From Prosthecobacter debontii (GTDB taxonomy: Bacteria; Verrucomicrobiota; Verrucomicrobiia; Verrucomicrobiales; Verrucomicrobiaceae), in NCBI RefSeq assembly GCF_900167535.1, contig NZ_FUYE01000006.1, positions 1 through 64,000 on the forward strand: a stretch of DNA of 64,000 nt. The letters run 5' to 3'. Numbering within the stretch: the first letter of the stretch is position 1; the number at the start of each line of letters is the position of its first letter. Under the pieces are notes generated by a model, which made no database searches, had not been told where the DNA came from, and worked only from the letters and a program-made list of their open reading frames with translations. This document shows positions 20,701 through 64,000 of the stretch, in pieces. Both the position numbers and the translations under genes were made by a program.

Positions 20701-22722
20701 GAGGGCCACACCGTTGGTGAAGGTGTTGTTGCCACTGAGGGTCCAGGCACCGGTGCCGCTTTTGGTCACGGTGAGGGCATTGGAAATATTCCCGCTGATC
20801 ACCCCGGTGCCGGAGCCGACGAGGTTGAAGGAATGGGCAGAACCACCGGTATCCGCCGCATTGACATTACCACTGATGTTGAGCTGGGTGCCGCTGGCGG
20901 CGTCAAAGGTGAGGGTGGCCCCAATGGCGGCCTGCACGGAGCCTGTCCAGGTGTTGTTGCCTGCGACGCTGGCGAGGTAAGGCGAGATGAGGGATTCACC
21001 GACGACGGTGAGGCCGCCGGAGAGGTTCAAACGTCCGCTGGTGTTGGTGATGCTGGTGCCTCCAGCTGTGCTGCCCAGGGCCAGGGCGTGACGGATCTCA
21101 AGGTTACCAGCGGTGATGAGGGTTTCTCCACTGTAGTCACTGGCTCCGGCCAGGATAAGGAGGCCGGTGCCATTTTTGGTGAGGCTCCCTGCGCCAGTGA
21201 TGGCTCCTGCGTAGTAGGTGTCATTGGCCAGGGTATCCAGGGTGCCACCGCCAGCCAGCAGGGTGATGCCACGATTGACGTTCAGAGAGGGGGAAGCCTG
21301 GGATCCGGCATAGGCGAACTGAAGCGTGCCGCCGTTGAAGGTGAGGTTATCAGGATCGACCGTGCTGGGCACAGCGCCCAGGCTGCCATCGGCGGCGATG
21401 TTGAGGATGCCGCCGTTGAGGACGGTGCCGCCCGTGTAAGTATTGGCCGTGCCACTGAGGGTTTGCGTGCCGCTGCCGGTTTTCACCAGGGTGAGGGCAC
21501 CGCCTCCGGTTCCATCGGCCAGGGTGCCGCGGAAGGTGGCGTTGGCGGTATTGGCCACAGTCAGGGTAGCGGCGGTGGCGCTGGCGTTTTCGATGGTGAC
21601 CACATCCGTGGTGCCCTGCTGGATGATGCCTGCCATCGTGGTGGAGAAGCCATTGAGCGTGAAGGTCTTCGCGACGGTGTTTGTGGCAAAGGTGAGCGTA
21701 TTCACACCCGAGGCATTGAGGGCATTGGCACTGCCGAGGCGCAAGCCGCCAGCATTGAGGATGACCCCACCGGTGAAGGTGTTGTTACCACTGAGCACGA
21801 TGGTGCCGATGGCGGTGCTGGAGGCATTGATGGTAAGGCTGCGGCTGCCCCCAGTTTCACCGATGTTTCCGGCCACGGTGCCGACGAGATTGGCATTGCC
21901 GACATTGACGGAAACCCCAGCATTGCCTGTGAGAGTGATGGGGCCGGAGACCGTGTAATTTTGATCAAAGCGGATGGCTCCACGCGAGCCTGCACCTGTG
22001 CCAGAGAGGGAGAGAGGAACATTGAGAGCCTCGCTGCCGCCAAAGCCAAGAATCAGAGAGCTGCCCGCTTGGACATCAATCGCATTCAATGTCTTGAGGG
22101 AATTGAGATTGCTGACGTTCAAGAAGGTGCCGCCTCCCCCGGCCACATTGGCCAGGGTCAGAGTTCCAGTCCACGTGTTGTTGCCACTGATGGTGAAGAA
22201 GGCCGTTTCGCTACCGCTCTTGGCAAAGGTGATGTTGCTGCCTGCAAGTGCGGAGGTGATGGTCAAACGCGTCGAGCCCGTCGTGAAAGAAGTGAAGTTT
22301 TCAGTCCTGATGAAAGCTCCATCCGCCAAGGAGATGGTGCCACCTGATAAGGTATAAGAGCCATAATTCGGGGTTGGGCTCGAAACCGTGCCAACGGCTT
22401 GGAAGGTCAGTCCTCCAGCATTCACGGTGCCGCTGACGGTGATCGTGGCCGCACTCGCATTGCTGCCGTTTCCAAAGACGGCGATGGTGCTGCCGTTATT
22501 GTTCCAGACATCGGTGGTGGCACCGTTCGACCAGTTTTGATTGGTAAGATTCCAAGTGCCCGCCCCGTCGGTCACTCCAGCCGTTGTGCCGTTGGCATCC
22601 CACTGCAGACTCTGGGCGGGAGCCAGGTCTAAACACAGACAAAAGGCCAAAGCTGCCACGAGGAAGCGATGGGAAAAACGGAGCACGGAGTTGCCTGGTT
22701 GGGGCAGGGTGTTGATTTTCAT
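17710..22722 (-). CDS. Giant PATR-repeat surface protein with PEP-CTERM anchor
   Basis: The protein of about 1670 residues starts with a signal peptide (HRFLVAALAFCLCLDLAPAQS). It contains more than ten autotransporter-associated beta-strand repeats of the form GxGxLxKxGxGTLxLxGxNTYxGxTxVxxGTL, which fold as a beta helix. It ends with a PEP-CTERM sorting signal: PEPSR, a hydrophobic segment and a terminal arginine run. That signal is read by exosortase, so the protein should be exported and anchored or released at the cell surface. There is no autotransporter barrel. I chose the ATG at 22722, directly before the signal peptide. In-frame starts at 22770 or 22827 are possible. The gene's opposite strand carries long artefactual open frames caused by its repetitive GC-rich code. 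Confidence 0.88.
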   Translation of the reverse strand: MKINTLPQPGNSVLRFSHRFLVAALAFCLCLDLAPAQSLQWDANGTTAGVTDGAGTWNLTNQNWSNGATTDVWNNNGSTIAVFGNGSNASAATITVSGTVNAGGLTFQAVGTVSSPTPNYGSYTLSGGTISLADGAFIRTENFTSFTTGSTRLTITSALAGSNITFAKSGSETAFFTISGNNTWTGTLTLANVAGGGGTFLNVSNLNSLKTLNAIDVQAGSSLILGFGGSEALNVPLSLSGTGAGSRGAIRFDQNYTVSGPITLTGNAGVSVNVGNANLVGTVAGNIGETGGSRSLTINASSTAIGTIVLSGNNTFTGGVILNAGGLRLGSANALNASGVNTLTFATNTVAKTFTLNGFSTTMAGIIQQGTTDVVTIENASATAATLTVANTANATFRGTLADGTGGGALTLVKTGSGTQTLSGTANTYTGGTVLNGGILNIAADGSLGAVPSTVDPDNLTFNGGTLQFAYAGSQASPSLNVNRGITLLAGGGTLDTLANDTYYAGAITGAGSLTKNGTGLLILAGASDYSGETLITAGNLEIRHALALGSTAGGTSITNTSGRLNLSGGLTVVGESLISPYLASVAGNNTWTGSVQAAIGATLTFDAASGTQLNISGNVNAADTGGSAHSFNLVGSGTGVISGNISNALTVTKSGTGAWTLSGNNTFTNGVALSQGELILGSYGALNSAAPNVVTFSASANTKTLSLQGTSSIVGGLVSTSATGVTTQNGGTTDATLTIQTSATRTYLGALADGSGGGKLSLLKTGSGTQVLGSASTYTGSTTVAAGTLQLDFNQTGAPASQILGSSTALILSGGTFSLTGSSTAANAQTVQSLTVGAGLSTISLTRNATTAQDLVLNLGNITTQNGGRVNFILPSGTQSATNGIRTTSSNDASGILGGWATVGGNNWATVSGGNIVAYSAYTDITNFSTGAGAVTPLPNNANANVRIINGGTSGNIALESTTTNINTLLQTATGEAIIDVPTGSLLRLGTSGGIMLGTGAGNLTIGTTPNSGNLSAGGTTTGTPGQLIFTDQSAGQTTTVNTAIRDNGTGIVSLVKNGPGLLILGATTNSTFTGATYINGGTVRISADSSLGTAPASAVSGHLTLNGGTLQMAASFTLSTNRGILLGENGGTLDLQTFNTTYSGIISGVGGLTKNGNGTLTLGGANTYDGVTTVNAGTVQVNHSQALGSTLGGTTVASAAILRLNTGVTVTGETLTINGPGNNQGNLQVQTGTATWAGDIILGSNTGRIGTGSSTGILIIDGVIKNGAGTSISYVGNGGGIVVLKKANTYTGNSDIIRGIVRIDTDNALPATTTLNMLTNTVVTESVALELNGNDQTLAGLKHGVVSVVDNVYVTNSLSGAGNLSVLTLNQANSTTYSGRIEGNLALVKDGSATLTLTNTYNLGGTTATATQSTYTGKTTIRAGTLALSGTGNISGTPWIQVDQGATFSISGRTSGNYTLNGQILSGRGNVNGNLIIAGSSGYVSAGDSTGSLLSNAGNGLGELTFENLTLAGGTPTLRALFQLGDTNSTLSDLLSGGDPAYFANADSGGLYDSIQVNGTLSLNAGSTLRVELLGSYVPTAGDVFNLLDWVNPLNTDGDGAGGAGAFTLADLDLSSANAILSGSGFVFNTDYFMQHGVIYIAVIPEPSRALFLMLGLIAFISRRRRRA

Positions 22723-23082
22723 GGCGGGGGGAATGGCCAGTCTAACTGAAAGCCCGGCGGCTTTCAGCATAAACCTGCGCGATTTGGGCAGAAATAGACG
22801 GGAATGTCTCGTTTCTGATCGATGCAAAATGCAATAAATGCGAGTTGGAGCCTCGTCTTGGGAGGTTTGATCAAGGTTCGGAACTCCGCCTTCAGGCGGA
22901 ATCTGGGCGACTTCGCTGTCTCAAAGAGTCCGGCTGAAGCGGGGGCTCCGAACGACCAGACACGGGCGTCAAGACTCACCCATTAGGTGCTCCAAACTTA
23001 GATTTCCGGCTGAAGCCTGCGACGTTTCAGGCCGCAGATGCGAAGGCTTCAACCGGAATTCCTTGTCTTCGATAAGGCCACT
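22723..23082. other. Gap between PATR gene and SNF2 gene: leader hairpin and repeats
   Basis: Close to the PATR gene, CTGAAAGCC (22746-22754) and GGCTTTCAG (22759-22767) form a perfect nine-pair hairpin that would lie in its leader. A family B double-hairpin repeat spans 22877-22954. At 23003-23056, TTCCGGCTGAAGCC faces GGCTTCAACCGGAA, a larger stem that could end SNF2 transcription. No gene is supported. Confidence 0.65.
22877..22954. repeat. Family B double-hairpin repeat, copy 2
   Basis: TTCGGAACTCCGCCTTCAGG continues to a closed hairpin, and after a spacer CCGGCTGAAGCGGGGGCTCC closes against the beginning of the unit. It is the same design as the copy at 17314-17393, with a few substitutions. 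Confidence 0.72.
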
Positions 23083-46370: not shown

Positions 46371-49300
46371 TTACCGACGGCGGCGCAGGATGAGGCTGGT
46401 CAAACCGAGGCCGAGGAAGAAGAGGCGGCTGGGCTCGGGCACCACCACCAGGGTGGAGATGGAGAGCACCCCGGTGGTGAGCAGGCTATCCACATTCCAG
46501 GCCAGGCCTTCGGGGAGCGTGGGGAGATCGTAGGTCGCGAACCCGCCCTGCACAGGGGTGGTGAGGCCAGACCAGTCGAAGAGCTGCCATTGATCATTCA
46601 ACGCCCAGGTTGTCATGCCGTTGGGGTTACTCACGCGCAGCGTGGTGCCTGCACCGAGGGTGACTTGGCCGCTGATCTTCAGACGATCGGCTGCCAGGGC
46701 ATTGGCGGTGTTATCACCCGAGCCAGAGCCGGAGATGAGATCCATCGAGATGTAGGCTTGGTTTTGCAGCGTCAGCATGCCAGCTCCCGTGGTATCCAGG
46801 GTGAGAGTGCCGGCACTCACGCTGAGGCCAGGCAGACCGGGATTCAGCGTGCCGCCGGAGATGAGGATGGATTGACCATCGCCAGGGGCCACGCGGCCGG
46901 TTCCGCCCAGGGTCGCCCCAGCCTGCACCGTGACACTGCCGAGACCTGTGGCTGAGCCTGGGAGGGCCGGGTTATTGTTGGCGAGCAGGATGCCCTGACG
47001 GACGGTGGTGCCACCACTGTAGGTGCTGCTGCCGGTGAGCGCCCAGGTGCCCACTCCTTCTTTCTCCAGCTTGCCCAGGATGGTGCTGGAGGCATCGGCG
47101 AAGCTGACGATTTCATTCAGGCCGGTGTTCGTTCCGGTCAGGCGCAGGGTGCGGTCGGCGGCGTTGCTGCCGCCTGCGGTGAATGGGGCGGTGAATTTCA
47201 GAGTGCCAGTGCCGGCGTTTTCCAGGACGGCGGTGACGGTGACAATGTCGCCTACATCATCGGAGTTGGTGACGCTGACCGGGCGGTTGGTCACGGAGTC
47301 GGCGCTGCCGATGTATTTTAAAATGGCGGTGGCGTAGGAACCCGCGGTGCCGGTGGTTTGGTTGGCCATGAGGATGGTGCCTGCGGAACTGTTGAAGTCC
47401 CCGGTGCCCAGGGAGCTGACTTCGCCAATGTTGGCCAGCTTTTCCACCACGATGGTGCCGCGTGAGTTGATGGTGGCGCCTGCATACGTGTTGTTAGGCC
47501 CGAGTGAGAGGGAGCCGTCGATGGCGGAGAGGCGCACTTCGATGTTGTTTTCATACTGGCCTGATCCGCCGATGATGCCGTTGCTAAAAGTGCTGGGGGT
47601 GGTTGTCGAGCCTGCGAGCAAGATCTGTGACATGGTGGAGGCACCGCCGACGATACGGTTCTCTGTGCCGACGCCCTGCGTGGTGATGTAGTCCATGTTA
47701 AAGGTCACACCGGTGCTCTCACTGCCGAGGATGATCTTCCCGCTGTTGCTGCCGGAGCCGAGGATGAACTCGATGTTGTTGTTCACACTACTGCCAGCGG
47801 CGAACTGAATGGCCCCCTCATAGACACGCAGGTTTCCGCTGAAGGTATTGGCTCCCGACAGGACGACCAACCCCGGTCCGGTTTTCGCGACGGAGACGGT
47901 GGCGGCGGTTCCAGTGCTGCTGAGGGAATTGGTGATGCCGCCGGTGATGTAAAGGGCACCCTGGGTGTTGTTCTGGATGATGTTGAGGTCAGGATTGACA
48001 CTGGCCACCGTCGCCGGAGACGGGCGGAGAAAATCGGTGGAGATGGTCACGGACTGAGCGCCCACGGTGCTGGAGACGAGGATGCCGCTGGTGGTGAGGG
48101 TGGTGGCCGCTGCGCCATCGGTGATCAAGGTATCCTGCGCCTGGGCAAAGCGGAGCGTCGTCGTGGTGGTGTCTGCACTCAGGGTGGTGGTAGCTGTGAC
48201 GAGGTTGGCATTGCCACTGAGAGAGGTCGCGGTGGAGTTGACATAACCGCCGATGGAAGAGAGCGTGACGACTGGGCGTGTGCTGCCGCTGAGCACGCCG
48301 GTAGCGGCCCATTCATCTCCATTCACACTGTCTCGGATATAGGCATAGGCGCGGCCATTGTAACTGATGAGGGTATTGTTAGACCCCGTGTTCAGGCGCA
48401 GGCTTGTCCCGCTAGGCAGATCCAGACCGAGGATGCTCCAGGCATTTCGGGTCACCGTGCCGAAGTTCAAGGTCAGGCTGCTGGCTCCATTCGGCACCAG
48501 GGTGATGTCGGCTTTGTTCGAGAGGGAGAGCGTGCCCAGCGTTTGGGAGTTGGTGGCGCCTGCGGCACCCGTCAGCTTCAGTGCGGTGCTGTTCAGTCCC
48601 ATGGCCACCGGTGTGGCAATGCCGTTGTAGAGAATGTCCGTGGAGGGGGAGTAGGCATCTGAAAAGTCCAGGTGCACGGTGCCTGCGGAGAGCGTCATCG
48701 CCCCCGTGAAGGTCTGCGTGCCTGCAAAGGTGAGCGTGCCGGCGCCATCTTTCGTGATGACGTTGCTTGAGGCATTCATTTTGCCTCGGATGGTGATGTC
48801 CCCGGCCCCACCGAAGGCGGTGGTGGCTCCGGAGGCGCTGGAGGTGATGGCATCCGTGGTGCCGCTGGTGGCGCGGAAGATGAGGGTGCCGGATTCACTG
48901 TTGATGCGTGTCGGTTGGCCCACCGTCACGGCCCGGACCACCGTGTTGTCACCATCGGTATTGATCAGGGCCCCGGTGTTTTTGAAACCGAAACCGTTGA
49001 GGATGATCGGTTCATCGGTGGTGATGCCACCGCCCAAGCGCAGCGTGCCATTCACCAAGACCGTGGTATTTGCCCCCGAGAGGACGCTGTCACCGAGCCC
49101 CATGGAATGGCGGATCTCCAGCTCACCACTGCTGATCTGGGTGCTGCCGCTGTAGGTGTTCGCTCCGGCGAGGATGGTTTTCCCTGTGCCGTTGATGAAG
49201 AGGGAAACCGCACTCTGAATGGAGGAATTGACGGTGAGAGTGCCACTCGTGGACAGGTTGGTCAGCCAGAGTTGGCCATTGCCAGTGGCGGCCTGGATCG

Positions 49301-50927
49301 CCCCTGCATAGCCTTCCATGCCGACGACCAAGCTCTTCGCATCCTTGGTGATCTGAATGCCTCCCACGCTGCCGAGCTTCAGGAGGCTGCCATCCCCCAC
49401 ATCCACCAGGCGGGCCGTGGTGGTATCGTTCATGGAGATGGAATTCACCTGAAAGGTGCCAAAGCCGCCAAACACATCCTCGGTGGAGTATTCATTGATG
49501 TTCACATCCGCATTGATGCCCATGGTGCTCAGCATGGCTCCGTCCAGAAAAATGGCCGAGCCGGAGAAGGCCTGGAGTTGGCCATTTTCCACCTTGGCCC
49601 AAGAGCCGAAGTCTTCTTTATTCACCAGGGTGGCCCACGGACCCAGGAAGCCGTTGGCCATGCTAGAGGTGATGGAACTGGAAGCGTCGGTGCTAAAAGC
49701 GATGGAGCCGGTGCCGCTGCGGGTGATGGTGCCGAGGTTCAGAGAAACGCTGCCGCCGATCCCCGAGGTCAGGGTGACATTCGAGCGGGTGCCGGACACG
49801 ACGACATTGCCGAAACGCTGACTGTTCTCGGTGCCGTCTTTGCCCTGAATGATGAAGGTGCTGTTGCCCTGAGAGCCTCCGATCATTGCCAGGCCACCTG
49901 CCGTGGTCACCCCCTGATAGAGCATATCACTCTGAGGCGCTCCAGCAGCGGCAAAGTTCAGGATCGTGATGCCCCCGGCGGTGGCGCCTGAGCGGCCAAA
50001 GGTGGTGGTGCCCTTGTAGGTGCTGGTGCCATTGAGGGTGAGCACACTGTTGGCGGAGCTGGCGAAGCGCTGGAAGCCATAGCCGAGGCCGTTGTCCGTG
50101 ATGGCGGAGTCAATGCTGGTGTTGAGGATACCGCGGTTGGTCATGATCCCGGCATCGGCCGAGAGGGTGATGCCTCCGGTGAAGCGGATGCTCGAACTGT
50201 CGATGCGGATGGCCCCGTTGCCCTGGCCGTTCCCGGCGATGCTGATGGGGATGGTGTAGTTGTTGCTCGTGCCCCCGGTGGCGAGCACACTGCCCGACTG
50301 CACATTCACGCTGTCCATGCCGCTGATGTTGTTGAAGCCCGTGAGCAGGAGGAAGATGCCGTTATCCGCCGCGCGGGCATTGACGTTGAGCACGCCTTTG
50401 AGGTCTGGATTGGCAGAGCCGAAGCGGATGTATTGAAAGCCATTGATGCGAGTCTCCACCGGGCGCTGAAGTGTGAGTCCGTTGCCTTTCAGCACGGAGT
50501 TGAGATTGATGAAGAGCACGGAGCCGCTGCCGCTGGAGGAGTTGTTGGCCGCTTCGATGACCGCATTATCGGCAAACTGAAGCGTGCCGCCGTTGATGGT
50601 GTGAGCGATGGTGACGGGTAGATCCTGACCGGTGGAGGTGCTCAGGGCATTGAAGCGCATGCCGCCGACATTGAGGGTGCCCTGCACGGTGATGGTGCCG
50701 CCAGTTTTGCTCGCGGTGCTGCCGAAGGAGGCGATGGTGGAGCCGCTGTTGTCCCAGGTGGTATTGCCGCTGCCGGTATTCCACAGAGCGTCGGTCAGGT
50801 TCCAGTTGCCATTGCCATTTTGCACTCCGTCAGCGGCGTTGGGATCCCAAAAGAGCTGGGCTGAAGCGTGGGGGCTCACCATCAGGAAGAGACTGACGGC
50901 GAGTGAAAAGCAGGACGAGTTTTTCAT
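46371..50927 (-). CDS. PATR-repeat surface protein with PEP-CTERM anchor, second copy
   Basis: The signal peptide (KNSSCFSLAVSLFLMVSPHASAQ) is followed by LFWDPNAADGVQNGNGNWN, an opening typical for PATR proteins. The beta-helix repeats follow (for example KDGAGTLTFAGTQTFTGAMTL). It ends with PEPSR, a hydrophobic stretch and an arginine run, the exosortase-recognised PEP-CTERM signal. The length of 1518 residues is similar to the paralogue at 17710-22722, but the repeats are degenerate and the two are not close copies. The ATG at 50927 begins the signal peptide and sits in an inverted repeat and in a four-base overlap with the leader ORF. No exosortase gene is in the window. Confidence 0.88.
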   Translation of the reverse strand: MKNSSCFSLAVSLFLMVSPHASAQLFWDPNAADGVQNGNGNWNLTDALWNTGSGNTTWDNSGSTIASFGSTASKTGGTITVQGTLNVGGMRFNALSTSTGQDLPVTIAHTINGGTLQFADNAVIEAANNSSSGSGSVLFINLNSVLKGNGLTLQRPVETRINGFQYIRFGSANPDLKGVLNVNARAADNGIFLLLTGFNNISGMDSVNVQSGSVLATGGTSNNYTIPISIAGNGQGNGAIRIDSSSIRFTGGITLSADAGIMTNRGILNTSIDSAITDNGLGYGFQRFASSANSVLTLNGTSTYKGTTTFGRSGATAGGITILNFAAAGAPQSDMLYQGVTTAGGLAMIGGSQGNSTFIIQGKDGTENSQRFGNVVVSGTRSNVTLTSGIGGSVSLNLGTITRSGTGSIAFSTDASSSITSSMANGFLGPWATLVNKEDFGSWAKVENGQLQAFSGSAIFLDGAMLSTMGINADVNINEYSTEDVFGGFGTFQVNSISMNDTTTARLVDVGDGSLLKLGSVGGIQITKDAKSLVVGMEGYAGAIQAATGNGQLWLTNLSTSGTLTVNSSIQSAVSLFINGTGKTILAGANTYSGSTQISSGELEIRHSMGLGDSVLSGANTTVLVNGTLRLGGGITTDEPIILNGFGFKNTGALINTDGDNTVVRAVTVGQPTRINSESGTLIFRATSGTTDAITSSASGATTAFGGAGDITIRGKMNASSNVITKDGAGTLTFAGTQTFTGAMTLSAGTVHLDFSDAYSPSTDILYNGIATPVAMGLNSTALKLTGAAGATNSQTLGTLSLSNKADITLVPNGASSLTLNFGTVTRNAWSILGLDLPSGTSLRLNTGSNNTLISYNGRAYAYIRDSVNGDEWAATGVLSGSTRPVVTLSSIGGYVNSTATSLSGNANLVTATTTLSADTTTTTLRFAQAQDTLITDGAAATTLTTSGILVSSTVGAQSVTISTDFLRPSPATVASVNPDLNIIQNNTQGALYITGGITNSLSSTGTAATVSVAKTGPGLVVLSGANTFSGNLRVYEGAIQFAAGSSVNNNIEFILGSGSNSGKIILGSESTGVTFNMDYITTQGVGTENRIVGGASTMSQILLAGSTTTPSTFSNGIIGGSGQYENNIEVRLSAIDGSLSLGPNNTYAGATINSRGTIVVEKLANIGEVSSLGTGDFNSSAGTILMANQTTGTAGSYATAILKYIGSADSVTNRPVSVTNSDDVGDIVTVTAVLENAGTGTLKFTAPFTAGGSNAADRTLRLTGTNTGLNEIVSFADASSTILGKLEKEGVGTWALTGSSTYSGGTTVRQGILLANNNPALPGSATGLGSVTVQAGATLGGTGRVAPGDGQSILISGGTLNPGLPGLSVSAGTLTLDTTGAGMLTLQNQAYISMDLISGSGSGDNTANALAADRLKISGQVTLGAGTTLRVSNPNGMTTWALNDQWQLFDWSGLTTPVQGGFATYDLPTLPEGLAWNVDSLLTTGVLSISTLVVVPEPSRLFFLGLGLTSLILRRRR

Positions 50928-50977
50928 GGTGCAGGAGGGTTCATCACCAGCGCCAGGCCGTGGACCTCCTGCACCAT
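50924..50977 (-). CDS. Candidate 17-codon leader peptide overlapping the PATR start
   Basis: Read on the minus strand, an ATG at 50977 opens a frame of 17 codons (MVQEVHGLALVMNPPAP). Its TGA overlaps the ATG of the PATR gene as ATGA. The beginning of the leader (CATGGTGCAGGAGG) and the PATR start region (CCTCCTGCACCATG) form a perfect 14-bp inverted repeat, so both start codons would be paired in one hairpin. Translation of the leader would open it. A chance origin cannot be excluded. Confidence 0.4.
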   Translation of the reverse strand: MVQEVHGLALVMNPPAP

Positions 50978-51358
50978 GAAGGTGCTTATTTTTGCAGATC
51001 GGGCTCCGGGGGGGATGCGGGTTAACTAACAGCACCGCACGTGCCAAACCAGGGCTGCGGGGGCACACTCAACACGGAAGTATCAGTGTTGGTTGCACAC
51101 GGTCCTCCCCATGAAAAAGGGGGGATTGGGGATCGTCTTGGGGGAGGCCTCTAGGAGCGCGTAAGGCCTTCGGTTTCAGGTTAAGAGATCCCCAGGCGGG
51201 ACCGTAAAGTTGCACGAAATCCCGTCCCTAGGGCAAGTCTAGAGACATTGGGTATTGGGTGACGAAGCTCTTGGTTAGGTTGAGGCCTCGCTTGACGGTC
51301 TCTGGCGTCGGCGAAAGGGACGTTTCGTCACGCAACGTGGGCGTCTGCCCGAGCCGCG
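50978..51358. other. Upstream region of the PATR gene, no further gene
   Basis: This gap holds the presumed promoter of the PATR gene and the 3' end of the M42 peptidase transcript. A short stem (TCCTCCCC against GGGGGGA near 51105-51125) is present. I see no coding sequence, RNA or confident promoter boxes. Confidence 0.5.
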
Positions 51359-55338: not shown

Positions 55339-58300
55339 TTAGTTTCTCGGCTTATCGCATTCAAAGAGGAGGTAGGTATTGACATAGTAGTATGGAAAGC
55401 CCTTGTGTTTGGCTCCTTTTATGATGGTTTGCTGATCTCCGTCGGGGTTACTCAACACAAGACCCACGGATGTAGAACCGTCTAAAAATAAAAGTTCCCA
55501 GTTAGTAGGGTTCCCACCAGTGAGTGATTGCACCCCAGAATTGTGGGCATCAGTTGCAAACTGTGCCGCAGCACCTCCTTTGCCTTCGTAATTCGTTGCT
55601 GTGAAGATGATGCCTTTGCCCGCTTCATGCCCTTTACCACGTCCCACAGCTTGATTTTCTGCAGATTGCCGGATGCCTAATGTGTAGTTAGTCGACAGCC
55701 CGCCGATGCCTTGATCCATGTTTGGCGGATCAGGTATTTGCCCTGCTCCGAACGTGAAGGTCTGGGGCGAAAGAGTGTGGCAAATATAACGACCCAAAGC
55801 TCCGCCAAGATCGGGATGGTGTGTATCATCAGATGGTGGGCGAAGTATCAGTCTTCCCACACACAAACGGCCGTCACACCGATCAGTCATACCGCCTGGC
55901 AAAGTCACACCGCTATTAAAGCACTGATTCCCATTGATGATGACGTCACAATTGTAGCTGGCTTTCACCGCATCAATACCTTTGAGCCTAGGCTGGTCGG
56001 CAACGTGATCGTATGTGTCTAAGCCAAACATCACTGTTGATTCCTCAAGCATTGCAACGATGCGGTAGCGGGTGCTCCCATAATCTTTGTTATGTGTAAA
56101 ATTCTTAGTGTTATTCTCGAATATGTAGTCCCTGGTGCCCTGGAAGTATTTTGTCGCGCCTAAGTCCTTAATAAATGTGACCTTCAACTTGGCAGCTTCG
56201 CAGCCAGTGGCAGCGCTGCCAGTTGGCTTGATCATCAGTTTTAAGTCTCCCTCCTTCTGCGGATTGGTCGTTGAGAACGTCACGCTCTCAGCCCGTACGA
56301 ATACCTTGTTAGGAAATGGATTGCTTGAACTGATCATGAAGTGATTGCTTGGCGAGAGCTCGATTTCTTCGGTGCATTTCCTCGTTTTGTAAAACTTCAA
56401 TCCATCAATGGCAGGATGATCAAGCCAAACTTCGCCTTCGGTTAGGCCTGGCTTGATGTGCAGCTCCTCAGCATCGTCATCGTCGGTATCGGTTGGCTTA
56501 CCGGGCGTATCATTATCCTCCTTATCCCAACCACCGTTTGAGAGCGAGTCATTGGCAAAGATGAATTCAGTTCCCTTGTCCTTTTCCTCCTCACTGGCAT
56601 CGCTTGTGTAAGGTTTTCCAACAAAGCTGTTGTCGCTGCTATTGACCTGTCCGTCGTTATTTAAATCACTGTATAACTCCGCCTGCATCAAAGAAATCTC
56701 AATTCTTCCACCATGCGGAAGAAGCTCTTTTTCATCAATAGCCTGAGTTTCCTCAATGATCGAGGTTTCTCCAGGCTGAAGGAGGATGGTCTTTAAGATC
56801 TTCTGATCAACGATGGTGCCCTCCTCATCCCTGAAGGTAAGAAAGATACTTCGGCTTATCGGCGGTAGCTCAGCTTTTTCTTCGGGGCTTAAGCCTTCGG
56901 GAATCTCATATTGCAGATACCAAGAAATGGAATTGGCCTCGGAACTGAAAATGCCATGTCGATAATCGCGCTTATATTCAGCCGTGCCAATCTGGGTGCT
57001 GTTCTGGGTCTGCGTCCAAGTGGAGGGATAGTTTTGTTCCTTTAGATGCTTGCGCATACGCATGTCCACATGCCCCCACGAGATGGGGTCGGAAAGCCTC
57101 CAGCTACGACTCCAGGTGCCGACTTTTTTATCGCCTTTCATAAAGTCCCCGGACAGACGGTGAGAGGTAAAGGTGGTTGTCGTTTGAGTTTCAGGAGTGA
57201 GCCATATTCCCAAGCTGTATTCATTGACACTTGAAATCGATACAGTGGTATTTTCAGAGGTCGAGGCAGGGTGTGGGTTGGGCCCCTCATCGTAGTAGTA
57301 GCTGACGTTGCCATACGCGTCAGTGACATAACCGTAATGTAGAGTCCTCTGCTGAGGATTGAAAAAAGACACGGTCTTTCGCGTCCCATTCATTGGGAGG
57401 GGGCCATACCAAGACGGAAGTCCGGGCCCACTGCGCTCAGCAACGATGCGGTCATTCACCCATTTGTTGGAAGTATCATTGCGTGTGCTGGTGGTCGTGG
57501 AGGAATAAGACGGACCGCCGTCCTTTTTGAAGTAGTCATAGACATCTGAGTATTCACGCCGCCATGACGAATGAGTGACGACCTTTTCAGTGAATTTGAG
57601 ATCCGACAAGATCGGAGTGTCCGATGGATTCGGAGGTATCACGACAATGGCGTTTGTGACACGGTGTGATGTGGTGTCCAAACGCATGTAACCATAACTG
57701 TAGGCGTTTTTCTCGGTCTTAGCGCCAGAGGTATATTCGCCGACGTAAGGCTGAATGGATTCGGTCGATGAATCGTTGAAGCCTGAAGAAACGTCCTCGG
57801 TAACCTCAGTCAAATAGACGACGTTAGTCGGCCCGTGGGGCAGGGGCTCATCTGGGGGACTATAAATCCGGCCAGCATCCACATAGGCTTTGGAATTCTT
57901 GACTTTCGTGAAGGCGAGAATGCGACCTTGCTGAGGTGGTGGATCGTTAGGCTTGTTAGGCTGCACAGGACCTGCAGCCGAGGTTGACGGCCCCTGTGGA
58001 GTGGATACCCAAAGGTCGGTGCCGTTCACATATTCCAAGTAATTGGGGATGCTGTCACCATCGGGATCCTCCAGACCATCGGTATAGCTTTTGGGATCTA
58101 AGAAATGGGTTAGTTCCCAGTAATCTGGGATGCCATCGTTATCACTATCGCTTTTCCGCGGGTTCGTGCCATAAGCGAATTCATGACGGTTAATGATGCC
58201 GTCACCATCGGCATCCCAAGAGGCGTCCGGTGCATAAGTTGGATCAAAGCCATAGGTGATCTCCCAGCCATCCGGCATCATGTCGTTGTCGGAGTCGGCA

Positions 58301-61300
58301 TCCATAGGATCGGTTTGATTTCGATACTCCGCCAGATTATCAAGTCCGTCTTGGTCGGGATCCAGGAAGGTATCCCGCTCTTCTGGAGACGACGCCGCAT
58401 TGAGGCCATGGTCAAGTTCCCACTTGTCTGGCAATAGATCGTTGTCCGTATCGTCGCTCTGTGGGTTGAGTCCCAAGAAATACTCTTGGATGTTCGTGAG
58501 CCCATCGCCATCAGCATCCATCGCCGCATCGGCAACCTCTGGATCGAGCCCGTAGTAGCGCTCCCAGTCATCAAACATCCCATCGCCATCCGCATCGTTT
58601 TTGTCATAGCGGGCGTCAAGGATTTGCGCTTGGATCGTATTGAATGCCGTATCAACGATGTAGAGTCCCGAAGCTGTGAGGCTGGAAGTGTAGCGGAGTT
58701 CCCCATCCTTCCAATAAGTGACTGAGGAGCCTGTGCGTTTGATCGTGAAAAGCGTATTCGAGCCGAATTTTCCTAACGCTCCACTGGCACCGACTGACGT
58801 GCCATTCTGATAGATTTGAGCGGACCCGTTGGTTAGGACAATGGCGAAATTGAGGTCGGTGAGGAGCCTGGAGTTGTTGGCATCATTCAGACCAATGGCG
58901 AGGGTGCCTACCGGAGAGGCACGAAAGGAGAGTCGAATATCGGTAAACGATTTTTGACTGATGGCATCCGCATCGTAAGCGGCCGCGCCTCCAGAGATCT
59001 TTTCCAATGAACCAATGAATCCCGACGTATTGAAATGATCCTCCCAAGCAATGCCTTTGAGCATGTCCTGAGAATTAGCAGCGTCGGTGTGATCTAAAAA
59101 CTCTTGGAGGTTCGTCACCTTATCGCCGTCTTTATCCCCTGTGGGGAGGAAGGCCTGCAACTCCGCGAAGCCAGCCGAGGCGGGTAAATATGTTTTTTCC
59201 CAAGCGTCCGCCATCGCATCATTGTCCATATCGCCGCCGGTGAAACGGACGCTGGGGATGACTTGATTGATGGTTTGGAGGTAGGCATCCAAAGTTAAGA
59301 TACCTGAGCAAGTCACCTCGGAGGTGTAAAACAGGACTTGGTCTTTGTAGTAGCGTATTTGGTTGCCCTGACGTTCGATGGTAAACAGCGTGTCTGGGGT
59401 ATAAACGCCCATATTGCCAGCCGTAATCGCCGTGCCATTCTCATAAACTTGGGCACTGCCCGAGGCAATGGAGATGCAATAATCCAGATCAGGACGGGTG
59501 GCATCGAGGTTCTCTAAATTGAAGCCCACCGCGACAGTGGTGGAAGCATTGGCCTTAAACACGACACGACCGTCCCCGATGAGCTTCTTGCTACCGACAG
59601 CATCGGCATTCGCGGTGCCTGTGGCCGCTGTCTTTTTCAACCCTCCATTCACCCCGTCGGCTTGGGTGCCCCGGAAGCTGGTCCAAACAACGGGTTCCAA
59701 ATAGCTGAGTGCATCTCTGGGATCCGTGTTTTCTAAAAATTCCTGCAAGTTGCTTACACCATCGAGATCGGCATCATCGCCAGGTAAAAAGGTGAAAAGA
59801 TCATCCAGAGTACTGCCCGCAGGCAAATGGGCAAATTCCCAAGAATCGAGTATGCCGTCCTCATCCCAATCGGCAGGAAATTTATCCGCCACAAGGGCAA
59901 GGGCATGATCAAAGCCTGAGGAGATAGAGACGAACCTTTGATCCGTCGTCAGGCTGCCTTGAACCACCTCTGTCGGCACTTTCTTCGAGGCGGGACTGGT
60001 GGAGCCGATAGCGAGCTGACCCACGTTGTTATGGCCCCAGGCAGTCATGGTGCCATCGGAGCAGAGGGCGTAGCTATGATGTTCACCGGCACTGATATCC
60101 ACCACAGTCTTGCCAGCAAGTGCGGATAATACGGCGCTGTCTGTATTGACGAAGACAGGGAGGAAACTATCCGTGGCGTTGTTGATACCCAATTTTCCAT
60201 AATAGATATTGTCGCCCCATGAAATGGCACTTCCGTCGCTCCTGATAAGGAGGCAGTGTGAAGCACCTGTGATCAATTTATGAATCGTCCAATTCGGATT
60301 GCTGCCATGGGTCAGAAGTGGCGCAATCGAGGTCAGGACCGGAATGGCTGCATCCGTGGTGGTGCCGTTACCCAAGCGACCGGAAGCGTTTTGGCCCCAA
60401 GCTGCAATCGTCTGATCATCGCAAAGAGCCAAGCAGAAGTCGGCCCCAGTTGCTATACCAATCACCTGTTTACCGAGTAACGCGCCACTTGTCTTGTTAA
60501 CGAGGACCGGAGCGTTGTGATAAGTGCTCGCTGAATTGTTACCCAGACATTTGGCAGTATTCCGCCCCCAGGCGACCAAAGTGCCGTCCTCGCAAAGAGC
60601 CAAACTATGATAGGCGGCGGAGCCTGTAGCGATCCGGATGACTTTTTTGTAAAAGGGCGCTGTGGGTGAGTAGAGAGCCGAAGGTGAATCTGTGCTGACG
60701 AGCACCGGAAGGCGTCGGTCTGTCGCTGTCGTGGCAGCGTCTCCACATTGCCGGCTGGCATTGTCCCCCCAGGCGACGACTCGGCCGTCCGAGCAGAGCG
60801 CTAAGCTGAATGTATATCCTGCGGCGATGTCCACGACGGTGCGACCGTAAAGGGCTGAGCCGCTCTCAGCATTGACGAGGACTGGCACGCTACTATCGGT
60901 GACCGAATTATTGCCAAGCTGGCCGTTGCCATTTTCCCCCCATGCCACCACGCTGCCGTCTGAACAGAGGGCAAGACTATGACTGCCGCCAGCGGCGACT
61001 TTCAGGACGGTCTTATGCTCCAAGGCTCCCGAGGTATCGACGGCCACAGGGCTGGTCCTATTGGTCACGGTGTTGTCTCCAATCCGTCCCGAAGAATTTT
61101 CACCCCAGGCATAGGGTTTTGTGCCCCCCCAATGCAAGACCAGATCATTGCCGTCTCCGCCATAATAGTTGGCGACAAAGCGATAGGGTTTATTGTCGTG
61201 GTAGAGGACCGCATACTCGCCGTGGGCAAGATCGTCGTATTCTCCGGTGATAAAGCTTTTCCCGGTATTGTTGATCAACGTCAAATTCGTTCCCGTTTCA

Positions 61301-64000
61301 GGTGCGAAGTCTAAGACGAATTGAGGTGCGGACCCCGCGAGGGAAACGCTGTTGCCCGTCACCGGTAAGTCGGTGCTCGTTGTGTAAGTCGCGACATTGT
61401 ATTGCCCCTGGATCTTAAAGCTGTAGGAAGGCGTTACTTCGTCATCACTGGTAACCGTCACTGTCGCTTCTTGCATCCCAGGCTGGGTCTCGATTCCGGG
61501 ATTGAAAATCACCGAGAAATTTTGAGGCTGTCCAGATTCAATCTGCACAGGAAGGGTCAAATCACCGCCAAGAGAAAAACTGCTTGGCTGGGAGGACGAT
61601 AAAGTGATCGAACTCACTGTTCTTGTGCCGGAAGTTTGTAAGCTAAAAGACCTCACAACAGCGGGATGACTATGGAACAACGTCCCGAAATCCGTCTCAT
61701 CAGCAGCACGCGGCGTTGTGTCGTTAGGGGGAATCAATAGCCCGTTGCCGACCACATTGAGCATTCGATAGATGGAAGTGCCGCTGATGGTAAAACTATG
61801 GGTTGGAGTATCAGCATCATTGCTGTGAAATGAAATGACCTGGCTTTGGAATCCGCCATTGTCCGTTTCAAATCTGACCGTAAAGGGATAACTATCCCGG
61901 GGTTGAATGCTGATGGGTAAGCTGAGCGGCGGCGCTATTTTGATGTGCCCATCATTAGCGCCATAACTCACTGAATGGATGATCAGGATCGAGTCGCTGT
62001 GATTTTCAATGGTAAACGGTTGATCATATTTTCCACCGATCAATTTTTTTCCGAAGTCTGTCCCATCATCGACACTCGGGCTGCTATCTCCATTCTGGAT
62101 TTCTAAACCCTTACCCAAGATCACAATTTCGGGGTTTGGGTGTAAATATTTTCCGCTGATGGGGAAGCTGTAGGAAGGCATTACTTCATCATCACTGTGA
62201 ATTGTGATGACGGCCTCTCTCGGGCCATAACCCGTAGGAGTGAAGGTGATGCCGAAAGCTCTCGTCTCATTGCCGGGAATGGTGAGCGGGGCCGTGAGGC
62301 CTGAGATCGTAAAGTCGTTGGCATGGGGCCCTGAAACGGTGATGGAGCTGATCGCTCGTGGCACAGGATGGATGGTCTCAAGAACGAAGGAGTGGGTTTC
62401 GGGGCTGTCCCCGGTGACCAAGGTACCAAAATCGGTGCCGTTGGCGATACTGGGTGCTGGAGCATCGCTTATATTCGGAATAGGTTGGTCATTGAACTTG
62501 GCCCAAAGAACTTGCTGCTTGCCGCGACCGGAAACACTAAAGCTGAAGGTGGGCGTGTTTACGGCATTACTGTGAACCTCGATCGTGCTATCGATAGGAC
62601 CGAAAGCACTAAGATACGAGAGGTCGAAGGTCTGACTTCCGCGGGCGGGGACGGTGAGAGATGCTGGCCCCGAAATTTGGAAAAGGGAATTGGAAGTGCT
62701 GATGGAGGTGATCTCCAGCAGCGCATCACTATCATTCGTCATGGTGAAAGTATGGGTCGAGCTGGCCCCAGGAACCAAGACAGGTTCAAATTGAGTCCCA
62801 TCCGTCTCTGAAGGAGTGAGGTCGCCATTCGAGATTGGTATATTGTTGCTTGATATAGCGATCTCGGGAGTGGTCTTGTAAAGAGTCTTTGTGGCCTCTA
62901 TGTAGCCATGACTCCAATAGCGTCGATTCATAACGCTTGGCAGTGTTTTCGCACGAGCTCTGATCAGGCTTCCCCCAGGAAGAGAGATGTCTGAATATTT
63001 CCATCCTCCAGAAATCCGGGTGGCTTCACCCAGCAGTGTCCATGTCACTCCTGCATCGAGAGAACGTTCGAAGGATACCTCAGAAACTTCAGGCGCGCTA
63101 CCACTCCGCATCCAGTAGAGATTGTTCCCGGCATCCACATACATGCTCTCGGTCGCGGGCGAGTTGTGAAGTCGCGCCAGACCTCTATGATTGGTAAGGT
63201 ATCCGCCGACCAGTAGTTTTCCATCGGCCTGTAGCTGCATCGATAGGGGGCAGTCCTTTAGGCTGTTATCCAGGGGGTTGGAGGCCACAAACGAAGTGTC
63301 GATTGAACCGTCCGTATTGAGTCTTGCAAGGTTTCTTATATTGACCCCGCCACTGAATCCAGAAAATGGACTTGCGATTAAAATCTTTCCATCAGCTTGT
63401 TGCGTGGCCGCGTGGATTCCATCCCACCTCAAAGAGTAATCGTTAAGGGGGGACTCCTCCCAAACAATGGAGGGTGAGTTGAAGGTGGTGTCAAGGGATG
63501 CGTCGGCGTTATGTCGGACTATTCTGTTCTCTGTGGCTGAATAGGATACGATTTTACCATCTCCTTGGAAGAGTAATATATTCCTGGGAAAGTTTGAAGG
63601 GAATGTTGAATCTAACTGACCGTTTGTATTTAAACGTATATAAAAATCAGGTTGATCAGAACTTGTATATGGCATCGGTCCTAAAGCCTCAACGATAATC
63701 TTGCCATCCGACTGTAGAAGCAAGCGAGCTGATTTAAAGCCCTCCGGTAGCTCAGGATTAAAGGAGGTATCAATTGTTCCATCTACATTGAGACGAATCA
63801 GCACGCCTGTATAAACGTTCTCAACATCATTCCACACTAATCCATTTAAAATAACTTTATCATCGTTCTGAATGACTGCAGAGTAAACGTTCGCGAACTC
63901 ATTATTTGGACTCTGCGGATAGTTTTCGTCAATATCACCAGCAGTGTTAAATCGAATGATATGGGATTTAGGGGCTAAGACGTTATCACCAATGAGGATG
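55339..64000 (-). CDS. Giant multidomain surface protein (choice-of-anchor D, RCC1, TSP3-like), N-terminus outside window
   Basis: The frame is open to the right edge with no plausible start. Reading from 63999 it gives LIGDNVLAPKSHIIRFNTAGDID, so the gene continues beyond. Delta-60-like repeats (RLNxDGxxDTSF with QxDGKILV) fill the region from 64000 to about 63150. Four choice-of-anchor D (ASH-like) domains follow to about 61400, each with DFG and FxISG. RCC1-like repeats (VAWGxNxxGQLGxN) extend to about 59900. Two LamG-like modules, each with a preceding calcium-binding DxDxDG segment, extend to about 58600. Thrombospondin-3-like DSDNDGIPDYWE repeats run to about 58000. A long unique part and a possible phosphodiester-glycosidase domain complete the protein. 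At least 2880 residues are visible. It is lower in GC than most of the window. No PEP-CTERM or barrel is seen. Confidence 0.82.
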   Translation of the reverse strand, partial: ILIGDNVLAPKSHIIRFNTAGDIDENYPQSPNNEFANVYSAVIQNDDKVILNGLVWNDVENVYTGVLIRLNVDGTIDTSFNPELPEGFKSARLLLQSDGKIIVEALGPMPYTSSDQPDFYIRLNTNGQLDSTFPSNFPRNILLFQGDGKIVSYSATENRIVRHNADASLDTTFNSPSIVWEESPLNDYSLRWDGIHAATQQADGKILIASPFSGFSGGVNIRNLARLNTDGSIDTSFVASNPLDNSLKDCPLSMQLQADGKLLVGGYLTNHRGLARLHNSPATESMYVDAGNNLYWMRSGSAPEVSEVSFERSLDAGVTWTLLGEATRISGGWKYSDISLPGGSLIRARAKTLPSVMNRRYWSHGYIEATKTLYKTTPEIAISSNNIPISNGDLTPSETDGTQFEPVLVPGASSTHTFTMTNDSDALLEITSISTSNSLFQISGPASLTVPARGSQTFDLSYLSAFGPIDSTIEVHSNAVNTPTFSFSVSGRGKQQVLWAKFNDQPIPNISDAPAPSIANGTDFGTLVTGDSPETHSFVLETIHPVPRAISSITVSGPHANDFTISGLTAPLTIPGNETRAFGITFTPTGYGPREAVITIHSDDEVMPSYSFPISGKYLHPNPEIVILGKGLEIQNGDSSPSVDDGTDFGKKLIGGKYDQPFTIENHSDSILIIHSVSYGANDGHIKIAPPLSLPISIQPRDSYPFTVRFETDNGGFQSQVISFHSNDADTPTHSFTISGTSIYRMLNVVGNGLLIPPNDTTPRAADETDFGTLFHSHPAVVRSFSLQTSGTRTVSSITLSSSQPSSFSLGGDLTLPVQIESGQPQNFSVIFNPGIETQPGMQEATVTVTSDDEVTPSYSFKIQGQYNVATYTTSTDLPVTGNSVSLAGSAPQFVLDFAPETGTNLTLINNTGKSFITGEYDDLAHGEYAVLYHDNKPYRFVANYYGGDGNDLVLHWGGTKPYAWGENSSGRIGDNTVTNRTSPVAVDTSGALEHKTVLKVAAGGSHSLALCSDGSVVAWGENGNGQLGNNSVTDSSVPVLVNAESGSALYGRTVVDIAAGYTFSLALCSDGRVVAWGDNASRQCGDAATTATDRRLPVLVSTDSPSALYSPTAPFYKKVIRIATGSAAYHSLALCEDGTLVAWGRNTAKCLGNNSASTYHNAPVLVNKTSGALLGKQVIGIATGADFCLALCDDQTIAAWGQNASGRLGNGTTTDAAIPVLTSIAPLLTHGSNPNWTIHKLITGASHCLLIRSDGSAISWGDNIYYGKLGINNATDSFLPVFVNTDSAVLSALAGKTVVDISAGEHHSYALCSDGTMTAWGHNNVGQLAIGSTSPASKKVPTEVVQGSLTTDQRFVSISSGFDHALALVADKFPADWDEDGILDSWEFAHLPAGSTLDDLFTFLPGDDADLDGVSNLQEFLENTDPRDALSYLEPVVWTSFRGTQADGVNGGLKKTAATGTANADAVGSKKLIGDGRVVFKANASTTVAVGFNLENLDATRPDLDYCISIASGSAQVYENGTAITAGNMGVYTPDTLFTIERQGNQIRYYKDQVLFYTSEVTCSGILTLDAYLQTINQVIPSVRFTGGDMDNDAMADAWEKTYLPASAGFAELQAFLPTGDKDGDKVTNLQEFLDHTDAANSQDMLKGIAWEDHFNTSGFIGSLEKISGGAAAYDADAISQKSFTDIRLSFRASPVGTLAIGLNDANNSRLLTDLNFAIVLTNGSAQIYQNGTSVGASGALGKFGSNTLFTIKRTGSSVTYWKDGELRYTSSLTASGLYIVDTAFNTIQAQILDARYDKNDADGDGMFDDWERYYGLDPEVADAAMDADGDGLTNIQEYFLGLNPQSDDTDNDLLPDKWELDHGLNAASSPEERDTFLDPDQDGLDNLAEYRNQTDPMDADSDNDMMPDGWEITYGFDPTYAPDASWDADGDGIINRHEFAYGTNPRKSDSDNDGIPDYWELTHFLDPKSYTDGLEDPDGDSIPNYLEYVNGTDLWVSTPQGPSTSAAGPVQPNKPNDPPPQQGRILAFTKVKNSKAYVDAGRIYSPPDEPLPHGPTNVVYLTEVTEDVSSGFNDSSTESIQPYVGEYTSGAKTEKNAYSYGYMRLDTTSHRVTNAIVVIPPNPSDTPILSDLKFTEKVVTHSSWRREYSDVYDYFKKDGGPSYSSTTTSTRNDTSNKWVNDRIVAERSGPGLPSWYGPLPMNGTRKTVSFFNPQQRTLHYGYVTDAYGNVSYYYDEGPNPHPASTSENTTVSISSVNEYSLGIWLTPETQTTTTFTSHRLSGDFMKGDKKVGTWSRSWRLSDPISWGHVDMRMRKHLKEQNYPSTWTQTQNSTQIGTAEYKRDYRHGIFSSEANSISWYLQYEIPEGLSPEEKAELPPISRSIFLTFRDEEGTIVDQKILKTILLQPGETSIIEETQAIDEKELLPHGGRIEISLMQAELYSDLNNDGQVNSSDNSFVGKPYTSDASEEEKDKGTEFIFANDSLSNGGWDKEDNDTPGKPTDTDDDDAEELHIKPGLTEGEVWLDHPAIDGLKFYKTRKCTEEIELSPSNHFMISSSNPFPNKVFVRAESVTFSTTNPQKEGDLKLMIKPTGSAATGCEAAKLKVTFIKDLGATKYFQGTRDYIFENNTKNFTHNKDYGSTRYRIVAMLEESTVMFGLDTYDHVADQPRLKGIDAVKASYNCDVIINGNQCFNSGVTLPGGMTDRCDGRLCVGRLILRPPSDDTHHPDLGGALGRYICHTLSPQTFTFGAGQIPDPPNMDQGIGGLSTNYTLGIRQSAENQAVGRGKGHEAGKGIIFTATNYEGKGGAAAQFATDAHNSGVQSLTGGNPTNWELLFLDGSTSVGLVLSNPDGDQQTIIKGAKHKGFPYYYVNTYLLFECDKPRN

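Follow-up and report, generated by a model that had tools for sequence, protein, structure and literature searches.

In riboswitch-type leaders with a sequestered start, a conserved core sits beside a covarying helix, stems are mutually exclusive and the start codon is covered. For PEP-CTERM genes, the upstream arrangement described in Proteobacteria is a box composed of a ‘motif 1’ and a sigma-54 ‘motif 2’, linked to PrsR/PrsK; the available part of the same report states that many PEP-CTERM genes, both inside and outside the Proteobacteria, have other upstream regions (Haft et al. 2006, PMC1569441). In the accessible sections of two further reports, the RpoN-dependent pepA of Aquincola provides a mapped sigma-54 promoter for a PEP-CTERM gene (TGGCAC/CTGCTT; PMC9850573), and in Salmonella the mgtQ-mgtB intergenic small ORF is needed in a system where alternative stem-loops decide the opening of the start region (PMC8092293).

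The window analysed here, a stretch of 64,000 nt from Prosthecobacter debontii (GCF_900167535.1, NZ_FUYE01000006.1, positions 1–64,000), encodes a surface protein of 1518 amino acids (46371–50927, minus strand) whose N terminus resembles a signal peptide and whose C terminus bears a PEP-CTERM signal above the TIGR02595 cut-off, and which has PATR repeats (PF12951; TIGR02601); leader ORF, stem and gene all lie on the minus strand. Reading the sequence from the far upstream side towards the gene, we see an enhancer-like motif (51073–51085; TGATACTTCCGTG, with GATACTTCTGTGC and similar in relatives), a −24/−12 site of sigma-54 type (51031–51045; GGCACGTGCGGTGCT), and a ‘C-tract’ (CCCCCCC, 51008–51014) located just past the predicted transcript start. 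Below these comes the hairpin that we call P1 (50971–50985), predicted from growing-transcript folds and covariation between groups, in which GCACC (50985–50981) pairs with GGTGC (50975–50971), followed by a conserved core (50958–50969; GGAGGTCCACGG, consensus GGAAGTCCACGG). Overlying both is the start-codon stem, its 5′ arm (50965–50980) taking in the GGTGC of P1 and the GGAGG of the core, its 3′ arm (50923–50938) containing the gene’s ATG; the 16-nt arms are 100% complementary and 26 nt apart, so that the repeat is perfect, as had been proposed, yet 2 bp longer than the 14 bp originally given. A 17-codon ORF (50977–50924, peptide MVQEVHGLALVMNPPAP and stop) is likewise confirmed, its TGA overlapping the ATG of the gene at 50927–50925 (ATGA). 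Elsewhere in the window, an adjoining 2832-codon ORF (55339–63837, minus strand) carries WG.N..GQLG-type repeats, which we take to resemble RCC1, and a first PATR gene (17710–22827, minus strand) has CCCCCCGCC immediately before an ATG, appears on reading to be without the leader element and, when translated from 22653, a start that we placed within the gene, scores just above the TIGR02595 cut-off.

The leader resembles such riboswitch-type leaders in its conserved core, beside which a helix appears to covary, and in its predicted exclusive stems and covered start codon; it differs in having no known ligand, in preceding surface-protein genes and in lacking an Rfam match, searches of Rfam 15 returning only a chance-level miRNA match for the window’s own leader (E 0.59) and none at E 0.1 for 8 element loci. 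As with the Proteobacteria box, single PEP-CTERM genes follow long non-coding stretches with a sigma-54 −24/−12 site and a candidate activator motif upstream; unlike that system, the PrsR model (TIGR02915) is above cut-off in none of four genomes here, NtrC-type relatives scoring below, and the available text on the box describes it without a leader RNA element (PMC1569441). Aquincola pepA is likewise a PEP-CTERM gene with a sigma-54 site, and the accessible portion of that paper makes no mention of a leader structure (PMC9850573). The use of alternative stem-loops to open or close a start region recalls mgtQ-mgtB, as far as that account is available, but the small ORF needed in Salmonella is not conserved here (PMC8092293). 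Among the literature matches listed, in a search that covered few subscription journals, we found no description of the leader element, and the same search returned none of post-transcriptional control of PEP-CTERM (exosortase) cargo; the stem-bearing shared leader looks like an unreported gene-control element. Our preferred reading, held with slightly more belief than doubt, is that the stem is an RNA structure covering the start codon, added by one branch to a structured leader transcribed from a sigma-54 promoter, and that a switch between P1 and stem gates translation.

A 69-nt RNA with the repeat has a folding energy of −35.6 kcal/mol, equalled by 0 of 200 shuffles (z −5.4). Perfect inverted repeats with arms of at least 14 and a loop of at most 60 occur twice in the 64-kb window, compared with a mean of 0.0 over 20 dinucleotide shuffles; the other one lies at 1154–1200 (15 bp, short loop). 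Using the N-terminal 409 residues of the protein as query, we find matches in 13 of 56 genomes. Direct orthologues in the relatives that we label G018, G033 and G034 (the window’s own genome being G000) adjoin the same M42 peptidase gene and show 63–64% identity over these 409 residues; a fourth orthologue lies in G064, and over about 500 residues identity is 0.59–0.61 for all four. The stem pattern matches 4 of 68 family genomes (G000, G018, G033 and G064), at a single place in each and always at the orthologous start codon, with a control giving 0; the fifth orthologue, G034, has no stem.

Between the four stem-bearing species 13 of 16 columns are invariant in each arm, as against 7 of 19 in the remainder of the loop (core excluded) and 18 of 49 in the upstream leader, and the gene’s four-fold sites agree at only 0.45–0.59 among G000, G018/G033 and G064 (0.73 for G018–G033). 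Paired cells make up 96.7% of the stem, with a two-sided change at one pair only, and 361 of 500 shuffles match the pair count, four sequences being too few to separate covariation from chance; the predicted start-codon-sequestering stem is conserved as a structure in four species, with structural covariation itself unproven. At equilibrium the region from −8 to +6 around the start is nearly always paired in these four leaders (unpaired 0.09–0.14), a degree of closure that is equalled in 1 of 24 other leaders (G000:C16, 0.13). As a trait of the whole element family the stem can be rejected, outside the window’s branch being at chance level (43495 of 100000 permutations); the long stem is a branch-specific addition to the wider element.

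Because a conserved stem would cover the start codon, post-transcriptional control of the large PEP-CTERM surface protein is probable, and to this extent the switch of the original prediction stands, separated from the leader peptide on which it had been made to depend. A stem this stable may, on the other hand, simply remain shut. One account of its origin is that template switching made the second arm from the first, the stem exerting little or no control and persisting by hairpin-based correction or through a role in mRNA stability only; the arms are indeed almost letter-identical in the four species, and the stem is absent from G034 and from other groups. Against this, it has been kept while 41–55% of four-fold sites changed (27% in the closest pair), despite an expected cost to translation, and we consider such an origin without control rather unlikely.

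The preferred reading places the stem upon a leader that extends well beyond what the original prediction had seen. Upstream of genes matched by the N-terminal search we find a shared block, a recurring element consisting of the enhancer-like motif, the sigma-54 −24/−12 site, the C-tract, P1 and the nearly invariant GGAAGTCCACGG, with the ATG following 32–45 nt after the core (27 elements); it stands before surface-protein genes of the PEP-CTERM/PATR type in Prosthecobacter and its relatives. In 12 aligned leaders the GGCA and GCT of the sigma-54 site, five C of the C-tract, GTCCAC and an ATGAA at the gene start are invariant, and GTCCAC remains so in 24 aligned leaders. A pattern drawn from the 12 matches five places in the window’s own genome, two of them among the 12, with 0 in a reversed control. 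Since the alignment registers of P1 differ between groups, ruling out a structured covariance model, we built a sequence-only model from the aligned leaders (R1; the 12 of its kept matches that are training sequences have biased E-values). In 48 genomes of the genus R1 gives 27 matches, of which 24 were kept, three weak ones lacking both sigma-54 site and surface-protein ORF being dropped (G063:C159, G059:C518, G066:C134). The 68 family genomes add four further elements (in G082, G069, G085 and G086; those in G085 and G086 are weak, E 9e-4 and 0.0016, and have no C-tract), with two matches dropped for want of the same two features (G077:C19, G077:C3). This brings the total to 28 elements in 13 genomes, one of which (G064:C9b) has no GTCC core, so that core-based counts use 27 of the 28.

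A strict pattern run against a collection of 84,980 species matches 22 times. All six matches within Prosthecobacter/Verrucomicrobiaceae are followed by a signal-peptide surface-protein ORF; the other 16, in unrelated taxa, we discount as chance, none having a long signal-peptide ORF just downstream. The genes behind the five elements of the window’s own genome and the one of G064 all encode autotransporter-type repeats (TIGR02601 five times, TIGR04393 once), and each of the six products closes with (V/I)PEP followed by a hydrophobic stretch and then basic residues, the TIGR02595 model scoring above cut-off in four, narrowly below in one and going unreported in one. For ten further or partial ORFs, mostly represented by their first 500 amino acids, PATR is above cut-off only in the two longer ones, below in one and absent in seven.

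The upstream part of the element fits a predicted sigma-54 promoter: the position of its GG-N10-GC core is constant, and each of four genomes has two sigma-54 genes. The usual sigma-54 geometry, as we take it, puts the transcript start at about 51020, which would place the C-tract a few bases into the transcript; in all 24 genus elements the tract opens 27–32 nt downstream of the initial G of the −24 element. So modelled, the start lies upstream of the leader ORF, not inside or downstream of it. Most genus elements have a motif similar to the enhancer-like one, with constant spacing to the sigma-54 site downstream, making it a candidate activator site. In each of the four genomes one of the two sigma-54 genes has an NtrC-type regulator gene no more than about 3 kb away (G000:C2:476231–480001, with like neighbourhoods in G018:C1, G033:C5 and G064:C9), a candidate activator of the gene set.

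In P1 the letters change between element groups and the pairing is kept. Each half matches its own partner better than the partners of other groups (11 groups, 27 leaders; 1 of 100000 permutations), and two-sided changes occur in 3 of 6 pairs (2 of 500 shuffles), a count taken on 14 of the 28 leaders (13 distinct) chosen for their shared register, a choice that leans towards structure. Sliding the partner by −3 columns yields equally many two-sided pairs, but with 50% rather than 79.5% of cells paired. RNAalifold retains three P1 pairs (−0.71 kcal/mol), and in single sequences the stability of the region is weak (mean z −1.07 vs −0.66 for a control segment). Pairing between the 5′ end of the transcript and the stretch ahead of the start is also better than in mismatched combinations (4 of 100000; −15.5 vs −12.8), a result to which the window’s branch adds nothing (−11.0 vs −12.9 mismatched). 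The 5′ domain as a whole is more stable than shuffles on group average (z −1.84), partly explained by its C- and G-runs; in the window’s branch, with a mean z of −0.3, it has no such advantage. We find unconvincing a general hairpin joining the G-rich stretch to the one preceding the ATG (80 of 2000 element permutations; by group permutation 7683 of 100000, or 4413 when the window’s branch is left out).

In the window’s leader P1 and the long stem exclude each other, since the 5′ arm of the latter includes the GGUGC of P1. Folds of the growing transcript keep P1 up to 88 nt (−28.4); the start-codon stem appears from 92 nt (−32.1), reaching −39.5 at 96 nt. From these features we infer promoter use, action as RNA and the direction of a switch, as follows. 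Transcription from the sigma-54 site would begin near 51020, and P1 (GCACC/GGUGC) would form first in the emerging leader, next to the conserved GGAGGUCCACGG. With the start region transcribed as well, the 3′ arm of P1 together with GGAGG could re-pair with CCUCCUGCACCAUG, closing the start codon. Were P1 and core held by a protein, a ligand, a partner RNA or timing, the gene would be on, and otherwise translation would be off; the stem would then act as a default-off gate laid over the shared sigma-54 leader. We put forward only tentatively the broader proposal that the P1-GGARGUCCACGG leader constitutes a new cis-regulatory class of sensor RNA in Verrucomicrobiaceae that makes the translation of a group of PEP-CTERM surface proteins respond to a signal, with a three-part switch, in which one arm serves either P1 or the start codon, in the window’s branch. 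Sharing one leader would identify several large surface-protein genes in a genome as a single regulon with two layers of control (sigma-54 and RNA); it would aid the finding of further members, and the switch is testable by compensatory mutation. As to a trans target or complementary RNA, we rejected one acting through GGADGTCCACGG: of its 46 occurrences in four genomes 12 fall in elements, and the 34 elsewhere are a mild excess over the 20 of a reversed control (elsewhere/control by genome 3/3, 7/4, 12/4 and 12/9).

A different view of the same conservation is that it acts in DNA, the dyad or the GTCCACGG core being bound by a regulator of the sigma-54 promoter. The core is conserved more in letters than in pairing and its spacing to the promoter is rigid, as such a site would have it; P1, however, swaps letters yet retains its pairs, and the short distance from core to ATG suits a leader. 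We regard a DNA-level site as unlikely.

The coupling put forward in the original prediction, in which ribosomes translating the 17-codon ORF would open the stem and re-initiate at the ATGA overlap, making PATR synthesis dependent on the leader peptide, is unsupported by our analysis. The two ATGs are 50 nt apart in the window’s own genome and in G064, such that the ORF ends at the overlap; in G018 and G033 they are 49 nt apart, a one-base difference in length by which the overlap is lost, the ORF continuing beyond the gene start for 119 and 140 nt. The conservation test that had been suggested for stem and leader frame alike gives a divided result, the stem being kept in four species and the ATG-started ORF with its overlap in two of them; the stemless G034 has no leader ATG, and an ORF started there by TTG would reach its stop at the overlap. 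Across the 28 related leaders an ORF ends at +4 in ten (ATG-started) or 15 (GTG and TTG allowed), figures that speak for the coupling. The ATGA overlap is nonetheless unremarkable in itself, because genes start with ATGA in 27 of 28 cases and an upstream ATG in one of three frames will end there unless it meets an earlier stop. Upstream ATGs fall 13, 10 and 13 in the overlap, gene and third frames (n = 36; six leaders have none), upstream ATG/GTG/TTG together 28, 31 and 34 (n = 93), and the GTCC-to-ATG distance modulo 3 divides 9/9/9 over 27 elements; the frame spread of upstream starts is what chance gives. The invariance of GTC CAC in the 24 aligned leaders, though both codons have synonyms, argues for a constraint on nucleotides rather than peptide, and the stem encloses the ATG of the leader as well. 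On frames and orthologues together we reject the leader peptide as a conserved unit; we judge the 17-codon ORF to be incidental and think the coupling very unlikely. A transcription terminator on the plus strand can be dismissed as highly improbable, since the one terminator-like match (+50971–50985, then TTATTTTTGC) compares with 0.8 expected from shuffles, no T-run follows the stem on the gene’s strand, and the plus strand is antisense to the gene.

Other upstream arrangements are seen in the genus. At one further locus of the window’s own genome (L054, G000:C4, about 1400–1560), a PATR-type gene has a sigma-54-like site and an ATG almost at the predicted transcript start, so that the C-tract falls in codons 3–5 (MFPPH...); the same promoter and C-tract here occur without a long leader. 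In other genus members (L036, L039, L040, L041 and L047) a different long block, CACAAATA.CGTCTTCTTTGCGCGATT..., lies upstream of PATR genes and precedes a possible sigma-54 site, perhaps representing a second regulatory type.
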